Shown: piece by piece, positions 13,958 through 24,375 of the stretch | Layout: the number at the start of each line of letters is the position of its first letter | How positions within the stretch are numbered: position 1 is the first letter of the stretch | From: Candidatus Melainabacteria bacterium | GTDB taxonomy: Bacteria > Cyanobacteriota > Vampirovibrionia > Obscuribacterales > Obscuribacteraceae | Reading direction: 5' to 3' | NCBI GenBank assembly: GCA_013288645.1 | Contig: JABDBL010000003.1 | Location: 62,001-126,000 of the forward strand | Length of the DNA stretch: 64,000 bases | Notes under the pieces: generated by a model | The model's input: only the letters and a program-made list of their open reading frames with translations | Database searches by the model: none | Told to the model about the DNA's origin: nothing | Made by a program: the position numbers and the translations under genes

Positions 13958-16900
13958 ATGAAAACATGGGCAAAATGGACATTATTGGTACTGTGGGTGG
14001 TGCTGCTTCTTTGTACTGCTAGTTTCTGGAATCCCTTCGCCTCTTTTCCCGCTTTGCTTAAATATTCGGTGGTGTCTGTAATCGGAGCAGCTCTGTTTGG
14101 TGCTTTGGTCATACTGATGCAATTTTATATTCTTATGTCTATTATTTTTCCGTTGCCGCCCAGGGCCGATTCAAAAGCACCTAAACCTTTCGGTAGAAAG
14201 TTTTTTCCTTTTTTATATAAAAATCCGCCAATTAACCCCAAAGCGCCGACTACGCTGGAGGAGCTAATCGGTAATGATAGAGCGAAGATAGAAATTCGCG
14301 AAGTAGCAGAGATGCTTTCTGATCCGACCAAATATAAAGAAAGTGGCGCCCAAATACCAAAAGGGATGCTATTTATTGGCCCGCCGGGAGTGGGAAAAAC
14401 TTTATTTGCCCGTGCCATTGCCAACGAAATTGGTGTTCCTTTCTTCGTGCTTGAGGGTTCTAGCGTAAGCGGCATTATCATGGGTTTAGGAGTTCTCAAG
14501 CTAAAAACACTATTTGCTAAATTACGCAAATTCGATCGCTCCATCTTGTTTATTGATGAAATCGATTCCATGGCCGCTAGGCGTAGAGGAGATCGAGGCT
14601 TCGGTGGGGTCTCAGACATGAATATGACACTGAACGCACTGCTAACAGAAATGGATGGATTTTTTGGTAGCAGCATGATGGTCATCGGTGCTACAAATAA
14701 CGATGGTATTTTAGATCCGGCCATTATGCGTGCCGGACGTATGGATAGAAGAATTTATTTTGAAACTCCAAATCCGGAGGAGAGGATAGAACTATTTCGC
14801 TATTATTTGAAAAAGGTAAATTGCGATATAGCCGCTGTTGATTTGGATGAAATTTCCATGCTAACTGCGAACTATTCTCCAGCTGAAATAGCGGGGGTTG
14901 TAAACGAGGCAGCATTAATAGGGCATAGACCGAATGGTCCTGGCAAAGTTACCACCGAAGTAATCATTCAGGCATTAGAACGTGTTTCCGTTGGGCTGGA
15001 ACGTACGATGGTGGGATCGGGTATACAGATAGCTAGTCAGGATGCAACAGTCCGCTTAAGTGACGTTATTGGCATTGACGACGTCAAACAAGATTTAGTA
15101 GAGGTGGTTGATTTCTTGCGTCATGGAGATGATTTACGAAGGATAGGAGCCAAGATCCCTAAAGGTGTTTTGCTTATTGGACCGCCAGGTGTAGGTAAAA
15201 CGATGTTGGCCAAAGCCGTGGCGAATGAAGCCGGGGTGCCATTTTATGGACTATCCGGTAGCTATTTTGTAAATGCTTTTGCTGGAGAAGGTGCTGAACG
15301 CTTGCGCGGGTTATATACCCAAGCACGCAAGAGCCCGGCTGCCATTGTGTTTATAGATGAAATTGATTCCATTAGCGGCACTGTGACCCCTACGGGAAGT
15401 GACCGTACCAGTGTGCTGAATCAGCTTTTGGTTGAATTAGATGGGCTTGGGCGCAGTAATGTCATTACCATTGGAGCAACCAATGCTGAGGAGAATTTAG
15501 ACCCGGCCTTTATGCGTTCTGGGAGGTTCGATCGCAAGGCCTATGTTGGTTTGCCTGACATAGAAGGCAGAAAAATGATATTTCAAAAATACTTGAAAAA
15601 TATAAAGCTTGAATCAGAACTGAATTTAGAAAAACTAGGCAAAATATCGGTGAATTTTTCTGGTGCGGACATTGCTGCCTGTGTAAACGAAGCAGCTATA
15701 ATGGCTGTCCGCCGTGGTAGCAAGCATGTGGAAGAGGTTGACTTGGAGAAAGCAGCTGAGCGTGTATCCATTACAGCCGGTCATAAATTGAATACTGCCG
15801 GTATGAATTTGTCAAAAGTGCCAGATATTGACGTAATGCTCGAGGATGTTAAAGGGATGGATTCGGCTAAAGCCGAAGCGGCTGAGGTTGTAGCCTTGCT
15901 AAAAAATGCAGATAAGGTACTAGCTAGCGGACTAAAGGCACCTAAAGGTGTACTTTTTGTCGGACCCCCAGGCACCGGTAAAACAATGTTGGCAAAAGCT
16001 ATAGCTAACGAAGCTGGGGTACCTTTTTATTCTTTGTCGGGTGGAGATTTTCAATCTATGTGGCAAGGAGTTGGGGCAAACAGGATCAAGGCGGTTTATG
16101 AGCAGGCCCGTCGCGGCGGCAAGCCTTGTATTGTGTTCATAGATGAAATTGATTCGGTAGGGGGAAGGCGAGCCATCGACAGAGGTTTTGGTTCGGTTTC
16201 AGATTCTAATAAAACCGTAAATCAGTTGTTGACCGAGATGGATGGTTTTGGTAAACATAAGGTTTTGACAATAGGAGCTACAAATCATGCTGATTTGTTA
16301 GACTCTGCATTGCTGCGACCAGGCCGTTTCGACAGACGTATAGATATTCCATTGCCCAATCTTGAAGGGAGAGAAGCAATCATCAAGTCGCACTTAAAGA
16401 ATGTTCAGTGTGATGAAACTGTGAACCCGTTGGATATTGCCAGAATGACTGTTTACGAAGCGGGAGCCGATTTAGCTAATATTGCTAATGAAGCTGGTCT
16501 TATAGCAATTCGAAACGGACGGTTCAAAATAAGCCAATCAGATATAATCCAAGCAATTCAGCGGGTGATGTTTGGTGTATCTTACGCTGGAAACATTCTT
16601 AGCGATGAACTTTTGAAAACTGCTTATCATGAGGCGGGTCACGCTATTATTTGCTATTTCCGCAACGAGAAAGACCGCATACAAGTTTTAACTATCGTAC
16701 CTGCCGGCTCGGCAGCTGGTTATATGTGGCCGGTCAAAAAAGAAGACTATCATCACACTACCAAAGAAGAATATATGGTGCGTATGGAAGTCGGCTTGGG
16801 CGGCTATGTTGCAGAAGAAATGTTCATAGGAAGCACATCTGCAGGACCTTGCTCTGATTTGCATACAGTGGCTACTTACGCCAGATCTATGATTAGAGAA

Positions 16901-17371
16901 TGGGGTATGGGTTCGTTCAAATTCAATGTGGATAAGGCCTACAGTGAGGTTTATGATTTTTATAAATTTGATATTTCCAGCGACACAGCTAGAGAGATTG
17001 AACTAGAAATCAAGGCGCTCGTCGATCAATGTTTGAATAATGTTCGAGGACTTTTGTCTCAACATAAGGACAAAATGAAAAATTTGGCAGAAGCGTTGAT
17101 CGAAAAGGAAACATTGAATTTCCGTGATATCGCCAGGATTCTTGAACCACATCGCTCTGAAATGGAAATTGAACGGGACTTACTTGTGATGGCAGAGAAA
17201 AGACTTGTGGGTAAAGTGCCTGTGATTAATTTAGAAGCAATCAAAGGCTTAGCGGTGCCCGATCAAGGAAACGGCAAAAAGAACGGTAGTGGTGAAAAAT
17301 CAGAAGAAGCTGACAAAAAATTACCGGAGCCTAATAAGGATGCAGACTCTACCAATAAAGATGCAACTTAG
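13958..17371 (+). CDS. FtsH-like membrane protease with three tandem AAA modules and one M41 domain
   Basis: 1137 residues, nearly twice the usual FtsH length (about 610-650). Two transmembrane helices at about 7-22 and 35-62 have only a short loop between them, so the periplasmic domain of FtsH is missing. Three AAA modules follow. Walker A: GPPGVGKT (141-148), GPPGVGKT (408-415), GPPGTGKT (669-676). Walker B: FIDEID (about 198, 465, 727). Each has an arginine-finger region (GRMDRR, GRFDRK, GRFDRR). The pore loop is aromatic in modules 2 (FVNAFAG) and 3 (FQSMWQG) but not in module 1 (GIIMGLG). The M41 peptidase has HEAGH (891-895) and a third metal ligand in GPCSDL (D about 967). The acidic/Lys tail is disordered. 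Likely degrades or remodels membrane proteins; the triple arrangement is not the textbook FtsH layout. Confidence 0.93.
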   Translation: MKTWAKWTLLVLWVVLLLCTASFWNPFASFPALLKYSVVSVIGAALFGALVILMQFYILMSIIFPLPPRADSKAPKPFGRKFFPFLYKNPPINPKAPTTLEELIGNDRAKIEIREVAEMLSDPTKYKESGAQIPKGMLFIGPPGVGKTLFARAIANEIGVPFFVLEGSSVSGIIMGLGVLKLKTLFAKLRKFDRSILFIDEIDSMAARRRGDRGFGGVSDMNMTLNALLTEMDGFFGSSMMVIGATNNDGILDPAIMRAGRMDRRIYFETPNPEERIELFRYYLKKVNCDIAAVDLDEISMLTANYSPAEIAGVVNEAALIGHRPNGPGKVTTEVIIQALERVSVGLERTMVGSGIQIASQDATVRLSDVIGIDDVKQDLVEVVDFLRHGDDLRRIGAKIPKGVLLIGPPGVGKTMLAKAVANEAGVPFYGLSGSYFVNAFAGEGAERLRGLYTQARKSPAAIVFIDEIDSISGTVTPTGSDRTSVLNQLLVELDGLGRSNVITIGATNAEENLDPAFMRSGRFDRKAYVGLPDIEGRKMIFQKYLKNIKLESELNLEKLGKISVNFSGADIAACVNEAAIMAVRRGSKHVEEVDLEKAAERVSITAGHKLNTAGMNLSKVPDIDVMLEDVKGMDSAKAEAAEVVALLKNADKVLASGLKAPKGVLFVGPPGTGKTMLAKAIANEAGVPFYSLSGGDFQSMWQGVGANRIKAVYEQARRGGKPCIVFIDEIDSVGGRRAIDRGFGSVSDSNKTVNQLLTEMDGFGKHKVLTIGATNHADLLDSALLRPGRFDRRIDIPLPNLEGREAIIKSHLKNVQCDETVNPLDIARMTVYEAGADLANIANEAGLIAIRNGRFKISQSDIIQAIQRVMFGVSYAGNILSDELLKTAYHEAGHAIICYFRNEKDRIQVLTIVPAGSAAGYMWPVKKEDYHHTTKEEYMVRMEVGLGGYVAEEMFIGSTSAGPCSDLHTVATYARSMIREWGMGSFKFNVDKAYSEVYDFYKFDISSDTAREIELEIKALVDQCLNNVRGLLSQHKDKMKNLAEALIEKETLNFRDIARILEPHRSEMEIERDLLVMAEKRLVGKVPVINLEAIKGLAVPDQGNGKKNGSGEKSEEADKKLPEPNKDADSTNKDAT

Positions 17372-19401: not shown

Positions 19402-21147
19402 TTATTTTTCGGCTAAAGGACTCGGTAAGATCGGCAGTTTATCTGTTTCTTTATCAGGTTCATGTAATTCAATTTCACTAAATAATAAAGAAGGGCAAAC
19501 TAAATGATAATAAGCCAATTCACCAGGATCTATAGCCAGAGTGAAATATGGTTTAGCGTCATTACCTGTACAGACAATGTCTCTTAATTTATCTATAGAA
19601 ATGGCGCTGAAAAGAGCCCCGCGTACTAATTCTTCATGTCCATCATCAACAGAAACAGAATATAGAAGTAATGGCGAGCGAACAAATAGTGAATTCGAAC
19701 TAGAGTTGGAGGCATTAGCTCTTATCTCAGCTGCTAAAGAAGAGGGGTTAAAGATGGCTGAATCATAGGTTGAAAGTCGTTTGGCTATCATTACTTGTTT
19801 CAATCCAGCTTTTTTGCCTAAATCGATAAGTTTTTCTTTCAATTCTTTTGCGCTTAATTGATTATCTGAGTTGACATAAAGAATGCTTGCTTCACCTATG
19901 TTTCCAATGGCGTGGCCGTTACTCTGCTTGGTATAGAGGGTTGGTGTGCGGCTGGTGCAAAATGTTTTAAGCACGCCTTTATCAACTAAAACAATCTTTT
20001 GTGCCGGTACCCCTTCTTCATCAATCTTGTAGCCACCGATTATTGGGCGACCATGGAATTTCTCACTTAAAGGATCATCTACTATACTTAAAAATGAGGG
20101 CATGATGGATTGTCCCAGCAAATTCTTTAGAGGATTGCGCTTAGACGAAGACGAATTCTCACTGGAGCTGAGAATTTCTTGAGCATGACCAAAATTATAA
20201 CGGAGTAATTCATTGACAAATTCTGCGGATGCTTGTCCCTCGAGCAAAATAGGTCCTCTGTATTCTTTTGCTAAGGGAGCCGATTTTAAAGCAATGAGAT
20301 TGTCAATCATGTCTTTAATAGCGTGTTTGATCTCTTCTTCTTTTGCTAGATCACTCAAAGAATTGCTACAAAATAGGCGATTGTCTGCTAATTGCATGCC
20401 GTTGTCTGCTTGCAAGCTGGCCATGACTATTAACGAATATTGGTTTTCGCTCTGCCGAACCTTAGTACCCTCGCTGTTAACAAGCCAATTAGTAACTTTA
20501 TTAGTAGTAAAAGTGGCGGTCGAACGTTGAATAGCGGGATATTGTCTGAAAATAGCTGAAAGTGACTTAGTGATAGATCGCCAATGAGTACAATCTTCTT
20601 CTTTAGTAGGTTTTTCTACTGATACTGTGGCCACCTCTTGTGAAAAATCATCTGGACGCTCTTGTATGTTATTTTGTTCTAAAAAATTTTTCTTGGCTTC
20701 GAAATTTTTAATTGCTGTTTTATAAGCAGTATCGGTATGTAACCAGAGTGCATTGCGGATGGCGTCGTAATCATTATCTATTGTTATTGCTCCACCGACA
20801 CTGCCCGAAAGAGCGGATAAAGCAGCAGTTGGGCGCATATTAAAGCCAGAACTATCGAGATGATAATTTCCTTCTCTTACGTCAACCCTGAGATTGCGCC
20901 AATGGGTATCTGTATTATCGGTAATTGCTCCACTTGCAGCAGCAAATCGCGCAGTGTCGTATTCGGTCACTCGATAAGAAATAAAATAAGGTCCTTCGTG
21001 TCCATTTAGTTTGAGATTCTTCATAGAACGGGCAATTTCGTCTTGCATAGCTTTAAAAACAACATCAGTTGTTTCAGCAAAACCGACGAGAGGATGAGCA
21101 AATAATAGAAAAACTATTGATATTGATTGAAAGATAGCTTTTTTCAT
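19402..21147 (-). CDS. Exported TldD/PmbA-family protein without the metal motif
   Basis: 581 residues, with a signal peptide ending near VGFAETT. The C-terminal half is collinear with the neighbouring TldD-like protein: SFLSIVDDPLSEKFHGRPI, GYKIDEEGVPAQKIVLVDKG, LKTFCTSRTP and the glycine-rich segment GHAIGN. Where active TldD proteins have HExxxH, this one reads RYNFGHAQEIL, so the zinc-binding pair is gone. The family works as a heterodimer of an active (TldD) and an inactive (TldE/PmbA) subunit, which fits this pair. Second gene of a two-gene minus-strand operon, 18 bases after its partner. Confidence 0.8.
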   Translation of the reverse strand: MKKAIFQSISIVFLLFAHPLVGFAETTDVVFKAMQDEIARSMKNLKLNGHEGPYFISYRVTEYDTARFAAASGAITDNTDTHWRNLRVDVREGNYHLDSSGFNMRPTAALSALSGSVGGAITIDNDYDAIRNALWLHTDTAYKTAIKNFEAKKNFLEQNNIQERPDDFSQEVATVSVEKPTKEEDCTHWRSITKSLSAIFRQYPAIQRSTATFTTNKVTNWLVNSEGTKVRQSENQYSLIVMASLQADNGMQLADNRLFCSNSLSDLAKEEEIKHAIKDMIDNLIALKSAPLAKEYRGPILLEGQASAEFVNELLRYNFGHAQEILSSSENSSSSKRNPLKNLLGQSIMPSFLSIVDDPLSEKFHGRPIIGGYKIDEEGVPAQKIVLVDKGVLKTFCTSRTPTLYTKQSNGHAIGNIGEASILYVNSDNQLSAKELKEKLIDLGKKAGLKQVMIAKRLSTYDSAIFNPSSLAAEIRANASNSSSNSLFVRSPLLLYSVSVDDGHEELVRGALFSAISIDKLRDIVCTGNDAKPYFTLAIDPGELAYYHLVCPSLLFSEIELHEPDKETDKLPILPSPLAEK

Positions 21148-21165
21148 AACCTTTGATATTGGCTC

Positions 21166-22905
21166 TTACTTTGTCTCGTTAGTCAGGGTTTTGTTCTCGG
21201 TCAGTGGTGCCGATAAAATGGGTGGTTTTTGTTGGAAATTGGCTTTTCGTTCTACTTCGATAGTTTTGATTAGCAAGCTAGGTGAGGAAGCTGACACAGG
21301 CACCCAGCCAGATTGTGCACCGCAGCTGCCGTTAAAAACATCTGTATCATCGGCTGCTTGCATAATATTTTCTAGTGATGTAAGCGGCGTGCCTACTAAA
21401 TCAGCACCGCGTATAAGCTCATCTGGCTTACCATCAACATAAACGCGCTTAACTAAAAGAGGCATTAACTTAAAGGTTTGGGGTGTAGCGGTTTGTGTGA
21501 AAGTAAAACCGCCGGCAATTTGATCGAAAACGAGTGCATAAGGCTTAGCTTGCTTTTTTGCTTCCGCTATTAGAGCCAAGCGCAAATCCGTAGCGGGGAT
21601 ATGTTTGTCTGCTATGACCATTAGATTGCCTTGACGGGCCATAGGAGCATAACCAGGGGCACAGCGGCCGTGTCCATTAGAATGGTTACAGCCTTTAACA
21701 GGCAAACGACTAGTTAGGAATGTTTTTAATATACCGTGATCAACAAGAGTTACCTTTTGCGCTGGTACTCCTTCATCATCGATTTTATAGAAGCCGTTTA
21801 AGCTTTTACCTGCGAATTCTCCACAAGTGGGGTCATCAAGGACTGAAATAAATGTGGGCAAAATTTGCTGGTCTAACTTCTTAGTAAAAGTGCGTCCCTC
21901 ATCCATATCTTTTTGTCGACTTCCTTCTAATCGATGTCCAAGTGTTTCGTGGAAATAGACGCCAGCTGCTTTAGGATTCAAAATAGCTGGGCCCGTGTAT
22001 GGTTCAGCCAAGGGGGCTTTACGCAATTTCTCCAGCGTATTGGCTACATCGCGTACGGTTTGAGCAAATTGTTCTTCCGGTGGTAATTTATCCAGTGTAT
22101 CCACTTCAGCACCATCATAGAGCCAAAGTTTCATACCGTCTGGAGCCAGAGTTTCAGCCCTTGTATAAAGACGATAGTGCAAATTTTTGTCTTCTACTTT
22201 GCTGCCCTCAGTATTGACAAAATAGCGGTGGGTTTTACTGGCTGAAAAGTCTACATAGGAATGTAAGATATTAGGATAATTCTTGTAAATGGCGGATAAA
22301 CGCTTTACCTTGTCTTCCCAGCTTTTTTGATCAACGGACAGAGACATTGATTGTCCATTCTCACCGGAATAAACACACTGTTTCTCGATAGAGAAATCTT
22401 CTGATGTGTCCTCTTCCTCAGTTTGCAAATCTTGATTGGCTTTTACTATTGCGTAATGCTTCTGAGCATTTTTAAAGCTACCGTCTGTTTTTACCCATAT
22501 AGCTTGTCGTACAGCTAATTCATCATCTTCAATTGGTATTGATGCCATAGCCTGCGAAATCAAAGCAGCAAGATTAGGCTTCAAATCATCGCGTATTTTG
22601 TGAGTGTTGTCCAATAGCGGGCTGCCCACTCGCAAATCTATATTGAGAGTACGGCTATGTTTTGGAGCTGCTTCTATACTTAGAGCACCGTAAGAAGCTG
22701 CTAAGTCTAATGTCTCTGTATCATACAATCTATAGCCGATGAAATATGCAGGAGCATCTTTAATTGATCTGAATTTGGAAAACGAACGATTTAGCTCCTT
22801 TTCCATAGCTGTCACTACGGCACTATCTTGTGCTCCAGCAGGAATAAGAGTCTGCAACAATAAAACGACAGTCAATAAAATGGAGGAATATTTTTCTTTT
22901 TGCAC
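21166..22905 (-). CDS. Exported TldD-like metallopeptidase
   Basis: 579 residues from GTG 22905. A signal peptide (SSILLTVVLLLQTLIPAGA) directs export, unlike cytosolic TldD of E. coli. The metal motif HETLGHRLEG matches HExxxH of the family, and the later segments (SVLDDPTCGEFAG, KIDDEGVPAQKVTLVDHG, FTQTATPQ and C-terminal NGSCGAQSGW with a cysteine ligand) are in the expected order. TldD/TldE process peptides such as microcin B17 precursor and degrade unfolded small proteins. A periplasmic version would act on exported peptides. First gene of the operon with the motif-less paralogue; ends 18 bases from it. Confidence 0.85.
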   Translation of the reverse strand: MQKEKYSSILLTVVLLLQTLIPAGAQDSAVVTAMEKELNRSFSKFRSIKDAPAYFIGYRLYDTETLDLAASYGALSIEAAPKHSRTLNIDLRVGSPLLDNTHKIRDDLKPNLAALISQAMASIPIEDDELAVRQAIWVKTDGSFKNAQKHYAIVKANQDLQTEEEDTSEDFSIEKQCVYSGENGQSMSLSVDQKSWEDKVKRLSAIYKNYPNILHSYVDFSASKTHRYFVNTEGSKVEDKNLHYRLYTRAETLAPDGMKLWLYDGAEVDTLDKLPPEEQFAQTVRDVANTLEKLRKAPLAEPYTGPAILNPKAAGVYFHETLGHRLEGSRQKDMDEGRTFTKKLDQQILPTFISVLDDPTCGEFAGKSLNGFYKIDDEGVPAQKVTLVDHGILKTFLTSRLPVKGCNHSNGHGRCAPGYAPMARQGNLMVIADKHIPATDLRLALIAEAKKQAKPYALVFDQIAGGFTFTQTATPQTFKLMPLLVKRVYVDGKPDELIRGADLVGTPLTSLENIMQAADDTDVFNGSCGAQSGWVPVSASSPSLLIKTIEVERKANFQQKPPILSAPLTENKTLTNETK

Positions 22906-22945: not shown

Positions 22946-23983
22946 TTATGGATTAAATGAAAACAAAAAAGTAGTGACAAAATTAAAACCAGCATGTCCA
23001 ATTATGGTTGTTGTTGTATTGGTGTAGCGCTTAACCAACCCCATAAAAGTTGACCAGATTGCCACTTGCAAAATGAAGATTGGAGCATGAGCAAATTGTC
23101 CATGCAACATACCGTGTAATATTGCAGCAGGCAGGATACCAAAAGCTGGTTGCAGAGCACCTCTTATAAGGGTTTCTTCTCCAATGCCGGCACAAAGGGC
23201 GGTTGCTAAAGCGAGGATAACAGAAGGGACAAAGCCACCAGCTACAGCGAACGTGCCAGAATTATAGAATGACAATTTGGTAGCCAAGTCTTGTCCACCT
23301 AGTTTGTGTGTATAAACTGCCCAAAGAGCATCATAAGTGAAGCTGGCGATTATTAAAGCAATGCCAATACCTATTTGTACTTTACTGGGTTTGACTAAGG
23401 CTAATCTTGTTAAAGCGTCTTTATAAGACCGGCTTATATAAATGCCAATGCCGCAGAAAGATAAAATGATTAAACCAATGCCATTGTAAGATAGTAATTG
23501 TCCTAAAATTAAAGGTATTGGCAAAGGCATATAGGGCAATTTGAAACCCTCAGGATCAATACATATAAGCAAATAGGCAGCTGTATTTATGTAAATGAAT
23601 AGAGCTATCAAATGTGGAACGGAGCTAGGGACAAATATTTTATATTGAGAAAAATACTCGAGCGCTTTCAATTTCCTTCTTATTAGAGGAAGAAAAATTT
23701 GACCGGTAACTGTTAGGTTTAATAAGGTCAAGATCCAAGAAAGGCAGCGACGAATCGGTATAAATAAGCAAAGTATGCTGGTCAGCATGGCTGAGTTTAG
23801 AACCGAAGTGATCCATGGATTGAAAAACAGTTCAGCACTGGCGCTAAAGACCGAAAGCCCTTCTAGCAGAGCGACAAGTATGATCAGCCCGCGTAAAACC
23901 ATTTCTAGCCAGCGTCTTGTTTGGGCGACATGAGCGAGGATGCCTAATAAGGCAAGAATCATAATAAGGAGAAAATCTAACAA
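22946..23983 (-). CDS. CPBP-family intramembrane metalloprotease
   Basis: 345 residues with about eight hydrophobic segments. CPBP (Abi/Rce1-like) signatures are in the C-terminal third: GIGEETLIRG (the EExxxR motif), HGMLHGQF and GHAGFNF supply the glutamates and histidines of the active site. Start is probably TTG 23983 with AGG upstream; the ATG eight codons in is the alternative. Bacterial members process or protect against small membrane peptides, and some handle prenylated substrates. It precedes the exported TldD-like pair on the same strand with about 40 bases between, so a joint role in peptide handling is possible but unproven. Confidence 0.85.
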   Translation of the reverse strand: MLDFLLIMILALLGILAHVAQTRRWLEMVLRGLIILVALLEGLSVFSASAELFFNPWITSVLNSAMLTSILCLFIPIRRCLSWILTLLNLTVTGQIFLPLIRRKLKALEYFSQYKIFVPSSVPHLIALFIYINTAAYLLICIDPEGFKLPYMPLPIPLILGQLLSYNGIGLIILSFCGIGIYISRSYKDALTRLALVKPSKVQIGIGIALIIASFTYDALWAVYTHKLGGQDLATKLSFYNSGTFAVAGGFVPSVILALATALCAGIGEETLIRGALQPAFGILPAAILHGMLHGQFAHAPIFILQVAIWSTFMGLVKRYTNTTTTIIGHAGFNFVTTFLFSFNP

Positions 23984-24150: not shown

Positions 24151-24375
24151 ATGGTTACTAAAAAGAAAATATTACTAGCAGCTGTCGTTTTAGGCACGCT
24201 CGCGCTAGGTGCGTCTTCAAGTTTTGCCAGTGGTCCCATTGTGCTTAGTCCTGCTGCGCCAGTAATGCCAAAGATGGCTGCAACTGTGGCAGTGCATTCA
24301 ACAATGCAAACTAAGGCCTTATCTACATATAGGCAAATTCGTGAATTTTGGTTATCGAGAGCAATTGTTCGCTAA
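24151..24375 (+). CDS. Small exported protein
   Basis: 74 residues, GGAGG 11 bases before ATG 24151. Signal peptide (KKKILLAAVVLGTLALGASSSFA) and a mature part of about 46 residues rich in Ala, Met and Val, ending with REFWLSRAIVR. Mature peptide too short for a family assignment. Followed by a strong intrinsic terminator, so it is a single-gene unit, often a sign of a highly expressed envelope peptide. The TldD-like exported pair is nearby, making it conceivable that such a peptide is a substrate; this is speculation. Confidence 0.65.
   Translation: MVTKKKILLAAVVLGTLALGASSSFASGPIVLSPAAPVMPKMAATVAVHSTMQTKALSTYRQIREFWLSRAIVR

Follow-up and report, generated by a model that had tools for sequence, protein, structure and literature searches.

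The window analysed here is a stretch of 64,000 nucleotides from Candidatus Melainabacteria bacterium (assembly GCA_013288645.1, contig JABDBL010000003.1, positions 62,001 to 126,000), whose genome is 2.78 Mb in size and 72% complete. Read from the open reading frames, two genes, A and B, follow each other on its minus strand in the order A, an 18-bp gap, B (Table 1). Relatives were collected by scanning genome contigs with an alignment as query, which returned at least 542; the scan with a single-sequence query gave no match. Among the matches listed, the closest named relative is a Candidatus Melainabacteria MAG (L073, 70% identity in A), and further close loci belong to Candidatus Obscuribacterales, which places the window most likely in this order.

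Table 1. Genes A and B, their signal peptides and motifs, and nearby genes, in window coordinates
Feature	Position	Strand	Details
Gene A, predicted exported TldD-like subunit, metal site present	21166-22905	(-)	579 aa, GTG start
A signal peptide, predicted Sec	22831-22905	(-)	aa 1-25, cleavage between AGA and Q; by eye and by hydropathy in relatives
A HExxxH motif	21934-21951	(-)	aa 319-324, HETLGH; H, E and H invariant in relatives
A Cys528, third metal ligand by alignment	21322-21324	(-)	invariant in relatives; aligned with the E. coli TldD Cys
Gene B, predicted exported TldE-like inactive subunit	19402-21147	(-)	581 aa, ATG start
B signal peptide, predicted Sec	21076-21147	(-)	aa 1-24, cleavage between GFA and E; by eye and by hydropathy in relatives
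B degenerate counterpart of the HExxxH helix	20197-20214	(-)	aa 312-317, NELLRY; from the A/B family alignment
CPBP (PF02517) membrane protease	22946-23983	(-)	40 bp upstream of A, same strand
Small exported ORF	24151-24375	(+)	strand opposite to A/B
FtsH-like protein, three AAA modules	13958-17371	(+)	1137 aa

A and B are members of the TldD/TldE (PmbA) superfamily with the M103 fold, a predicted exported pair of which one protein is active-looking and the other inactive. The PmbA/TldD C-terminal domain (PF19289) scored 93.7 bits in A and 60.4 bits in B, with a Pfam cut-off of 22. The N-terminal domain (PF01523) had no match in either protein and the central domain (PF19290) fell under its cut-off; Foldseek alignments of both models covered TldD/TldE chains almost from end to end (TMt about 0.7-0.77). 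NCBIfam equivalog scores were below their cut-offs, with 53 of 513 for A (TldD), 17 of 438 for B (PmbA), and 75 bits for A with the archaeal TldD family (cut-off 635). The alignment of E. coli TldD to A runs through HExxxH and the C-terminal Cys. AF2 monomer models (pLDDT 87.9 for A and 86.3 for B) have the same predicted fold, and the significant PDB matches of both were TldD/TldE/PmbA chains only.

The sequence-only reading had assigned signal peptides to both proteins, and the N-termini agree with it. By eye, A starts with a Sec-type signal peptide, MQKEKYSSILLTVVLLLQTLIPAGA, followed by Q, and B with another, MKKAIFQSISIVFLLFAHPLVGFA, followed by E. Signal peptides were called by hydropathy and inspection; a hydrophobic segment at the N-terminus, directly ahead of the domain, was found in 96 of 106 A relatives and 97 of 101 B relatives. 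Several of the proteins lacking it have long linkers, and their signal peptides possibly lie outside the scanned stretch. E. coli TldD and TldE scored low in the same scan. From these N-termini we infer that A and B are both exported. An apparent export signal of another kind was observed in a TldD of the canonical clade from a Calditrichota MAG (L187:1197-2825, plus strand), whose N-terminus, RRDFLKKAG, is Tat-like; TldD apparently became an exported protein on more than one occasion.

Residues His319, Glu320, His324 and Cys528 of A are invariant, both in the family alignment (41/41 proteins) and in a cross-phylum set (79/79), the two sets partly overlapping. HExxxH is absent from every B checked, and the positions matching the site of A vary in B, which retains the structural residues D376, G379, N410-G411-H412, R400 and P552-S553 in the family alignment. 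The motifs quoted in the sequence-only reading, HETLGHRLEG in A and RYNFGHAQEIL in B, were both found, and its claim that the metal motif was lost in one partner only holds among these relatives. Part of the refuting case it had named was a homodimer of B with a full metal site built from another motif; the B family alignment contains no such site, with one invariant His and no invariant Cys.

A and B form an autonomous, conserved, near-obligate two-gene unit, and the two genes occur together both within the family and across phyla. A family survey covered 60 relatives, 35 of them same-family (Obscuribacterales) genomes; 40 A/B pairs were present in 22 of these 35, at most four per genome, and A was followed by B in all 40. 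Some genomes hold three or four diverged pairs. Among the best 80 of at least 542 relatives, drawn from many phyla, B adjoins A in 74 (73 loci passing the adjacency rule and L142, added in our count, with an overlapping long B ORF downstream), and one further locus, L129, carries an A-B fusion. Taxon labels among the matches listed include Planctomycetota, Acidobacteria, Myxococcaceae, Verrucomicrobiales, Gemmatimonadetes, Ignavibacteria, Zixibacteria, Calditrichaeota and others. At the remaining five loci no B lies adjacent; the contig of one (L111) stops 0.5 kb past A, and some of the genomes concerned have a B-like gene elsewhere. Two B-like fragments were seen alone, with no A near (G025:C9:18535-19629 and G012:C33:5552-6717), and are possible pseudogenes or assembly pieces.

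The fusion at L129 is a single 1132-aa ORF that passes from A straight into B, and its junction has no signal peptide. Because the contig truncates this ORF at the 5′ end, its own signal peptide region is not visible; three genomes related to L129 have two separate genes. This natural fusion argues strongly, if indirectly, for joint action of A and B within a single compartment. Divergence of the two proteins is also matched: the A and B distance matrices correlated with r=0.885 over 39 pairs, re-pairing within genomes gave a mean r of 0.333 and a maximum of 0.782, and 0 of 5000 shuffles reached the observed value. Shuffling within genomes controls for the species tree, but not for simple linkage. 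A/B pairs duplicate as units.

The sequence-only reading had seen in A and B the TldD/TldE heterodimer relocated to the periplasm, a claim that trees and AU tests do not support. In trees of exported and cytosolic proteins A groups with B, apart from TldD and TldE, and in a careful tree with the motif columns removed the split of A and B from TldD and TldE was recovered at 100/100. A single clade of B and TldE was rejected (p-AU 4.8e-9, lnL difference 172.6; AU test, 52 rows), as it was by the C-domain alone (p-AU 1.6e-8) and by the N-domain alone (p-AU 8.7e-5). A grouping of A with TldD and of B with TldE did not appear in the orthologue test. In profile comparison A matched B at 2e-112, far above the match of either to TldD or TldE. 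With A and B placed apart from TldD and TldE, the motif changes at least twice on the tree; and since A and B form a clade of their own and B with TldE is rejected, an inactive partner most likely evolved twice. The A/B duplication would then be separate from that of TldD and TldE, and the active site would have been lost in one partner on two occasions.

Another history could be imagined, in which A is the TldD orthologue and B the TldE orthologue, the two were exported together, with the function proposed below, and later gene conversion or shared periplasmic selection made them alike. Profile scores lean slightly this way, as B matched TldE at 1.8e-18 and TldD at 2.5e-12 and A favours TldD over TldE, a pairing expected as well from an ancient shared duplication. 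The top Foldseek match is TldD for A and TldE for B. However, the 33% identity of A and B extends over their whole length, B with TldE is rejected by each domain as well as by the full alignment, and gene conversion would have been needed over both domains, before the spread across phyla. We consider this history unlikely. A long branch (about 2 changes per column) leads to the exported clade and leaves room for model error or ancient gene conversion. Because of this branch between the groups, and of the profile scores, which favour B next to TldE and A next to TldD, an origin of the inactive partner independent of TldE is held to be likely rather than near certain. The composite picture is of an ancient, phylum-spanning exported branch in which a duplication of its own gave an active and an inactive subunit of a heterodimer, convergent with TldD/TldE, that would act as an enclosed periplasmic peptidase and has three to four diverged pairs in some lineages; we find it reasonably probable.

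As to function, A and B are probably the two subunits of a periplasmic TldD/E-type (MEROPS M103-like) heterodimer, with its own duplication and an enclosed site, that trims peptides. The pairing of A and B and the L129 fusion support the heterodimer indirectly; heterodimer formation, metal binding, peptidase activity and a periplasmic housekeeping role are all inferred. Sec signal peptides would carry both proteins across the inner membrane, and on the periplasmic side the two would join to form a hollow heterodimer. Metal would be bound by A only, through His319, His324 and Cys528, with Glu320 as the putative catalytic base, and B would complete the shell. Unfolded peptides or protein ends may thread in and be trimmed largely without sequence preference. 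In E. coli TldD/E the active site is enclosed, and unfolded peptides are trimmed from the N-terminus with no sequence preference (PMC5810440). By analogy with that enzyme, A/B most likely trims unfolded peptides in the periplasm.

The same fold and metal site could instead serve a non-peptide substrate, A/B being an exported amidase or N-deacetylase whose targets are small molecules or pieces of the cell wall. Members of the TldD/TldE family are said, in the title of a 2022 review by Vobruba et al. that PMC10885120 cites, to be N-deacetylases in antibiotic pathways. Such activity is open to TldD-fold enzymes, which makes a peptide substrate less than certain, and the three or four diverged pairs of some genomes would suit differing substrates. 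However, A/B shows no tie to biosynthetic clusters or to any conserved neighbour, and the best-studied family member is a peptidase (PMC5810440). A deacetylase is improbable, yet a serious rival. That B acts on its own as a homodimer with a separate activity, and not as a partner of A, is less credible still: E. coli TldE can homodimerise by itself (PMC5810440) and an adjacent B is missing at a few loci, but strict pairing, the A-B fusion and matched divergence of A and B speak against it, as does the lack of an alternative metal motif in B. A periplasmic heterodimer with one active subunit is the reading we prefer.

Across about 100 loci no shared neighbours of the pair were found; the genes around it were promiscuous or restricted to single lineages (kinases, histidine kinases). 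The sequence-only reading had placed a CPBP membrane protease gene before A and a small exported peptide gene close by; both are there, and both are also near the pair in a sister genome (L033). The small exported protein (MVTKKK...ASSSFASGPIVL), which has no Pfam match, is kept in the genus (in the sister genome at L033:5908-6165, minus strand). In that genome a PemK/MazF-like toxin gene with an adjacent small ORF lies between CPBP and A (L033:7550-8202, minus strand), apparently a genus-internal insertion. In a few Acidobacteria an M48 CAAX-type protease lies upstream of the pair.

The suggestion that CPBP, the small exported protein and A/B act jointly as a peptide-processing locus, for which the closeness and shared strand of CPBP and A and the retention of all three in the sister genome might be cited, is largely refuted: CPBP is order-wide but adjoins the pair only within this genus, is present in at least 10 genomes of the family that lack A/B and missing from two that have it (G005 and G013), and is parted from A by the toxin gene in the sister genome, while the small ORF lies on the other strand. 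CPBP was rejected as a partner on its neighbourhood and its genome-wide presence. Elsewhere CPBP repeatedly neighbours a triple-AAA FtsH, found within 10 kb of it in 12 genomes of the order, and this suggests that the conserved neighbours are CPBP and the triple-AAA FtsH rather than CPBP and the TldD-like pair. The triple-AAA FtsH has Walker A motifs at aa 141, 408 and 669, followed by one M41 protease domain (HEAGH, aa 891). It is full-length in about 20 genomes of the order; elsewhere in the class, the families showed only FtsH of the ordinary kind, about 640-690 aa long, and a quick literature search found no description of the triple-AAA form.

Most genomes of the family have both canonical TldD and the exported pair, or canonical TldD only. 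No canonical N-terminal TldD domain was found in the genus of the window, including the 96%-complete sister genome (G001), or in some other family genomes, so that the exported pair may be the sole TldD/E system there. TldD/E has been described as an intracellular enzyme, and its inactive half as derived from a TldD copy through loss of the site. A literature search on exported or secreted TldD returned no description of such a pair, its matches being lists or exoproteomes (e.g., a Leptospira exoproteome naming tldD); the Vobruba et al. 2022 review may possibly mention one. If our interpretation is correct, an exported branch repeating the active/inactive split would be a natural replicate in which the reason for this fold's preference for an inactive partner could be tested, and many environmental phyla would contain a so far unstudied, self-compartmentalised cell-envelope peptidase. 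The natural fusion at L129 is a ready construct for structure work.

Among known systems, the CPBP/Rce1-like intramembrane proteases (PF02517) have an unrelated fold and occur upstream of A in this genus only. The Calditrichota protein with the Tat-like signal resembles A in being of TldD type and in apparently carrying an export signal, and differs in belonging to the canonical TldD clade and in a signal that is not Sec-like, so that it represents a separate case of export. The archaeal and Thermotoga TldD-TldE proteins (6J6A, T. kodakarensis TldE; 1VL4, T. maritima TM0727) have the same fold as A/B, as lower-ranked Foldseek matches, and belong to another sequence subfamily. E. coli TldD/TldE (PmbA) of family M103 (PDB 5NJ5-5NJF; PMC5810440) is like A/B in the fold of both subunits and in that just one of the two has HExxxH and the C-terminal Cys. 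The likeness in operon order that the sequence-only reading had drawn applies to many bacteria, where the cytosolic genes are paired as A and B are, but not to E. coli itself, where tldD and tldE are unlinked, about 1 Mb apart. Unlike the E. coli products, which lack signal peptides, A and B carry them and are about 100 aa longer; their N-terminal domain goes unrecognised by Pfam, and in trees they group with each other, separate from TldD as well as TldE.
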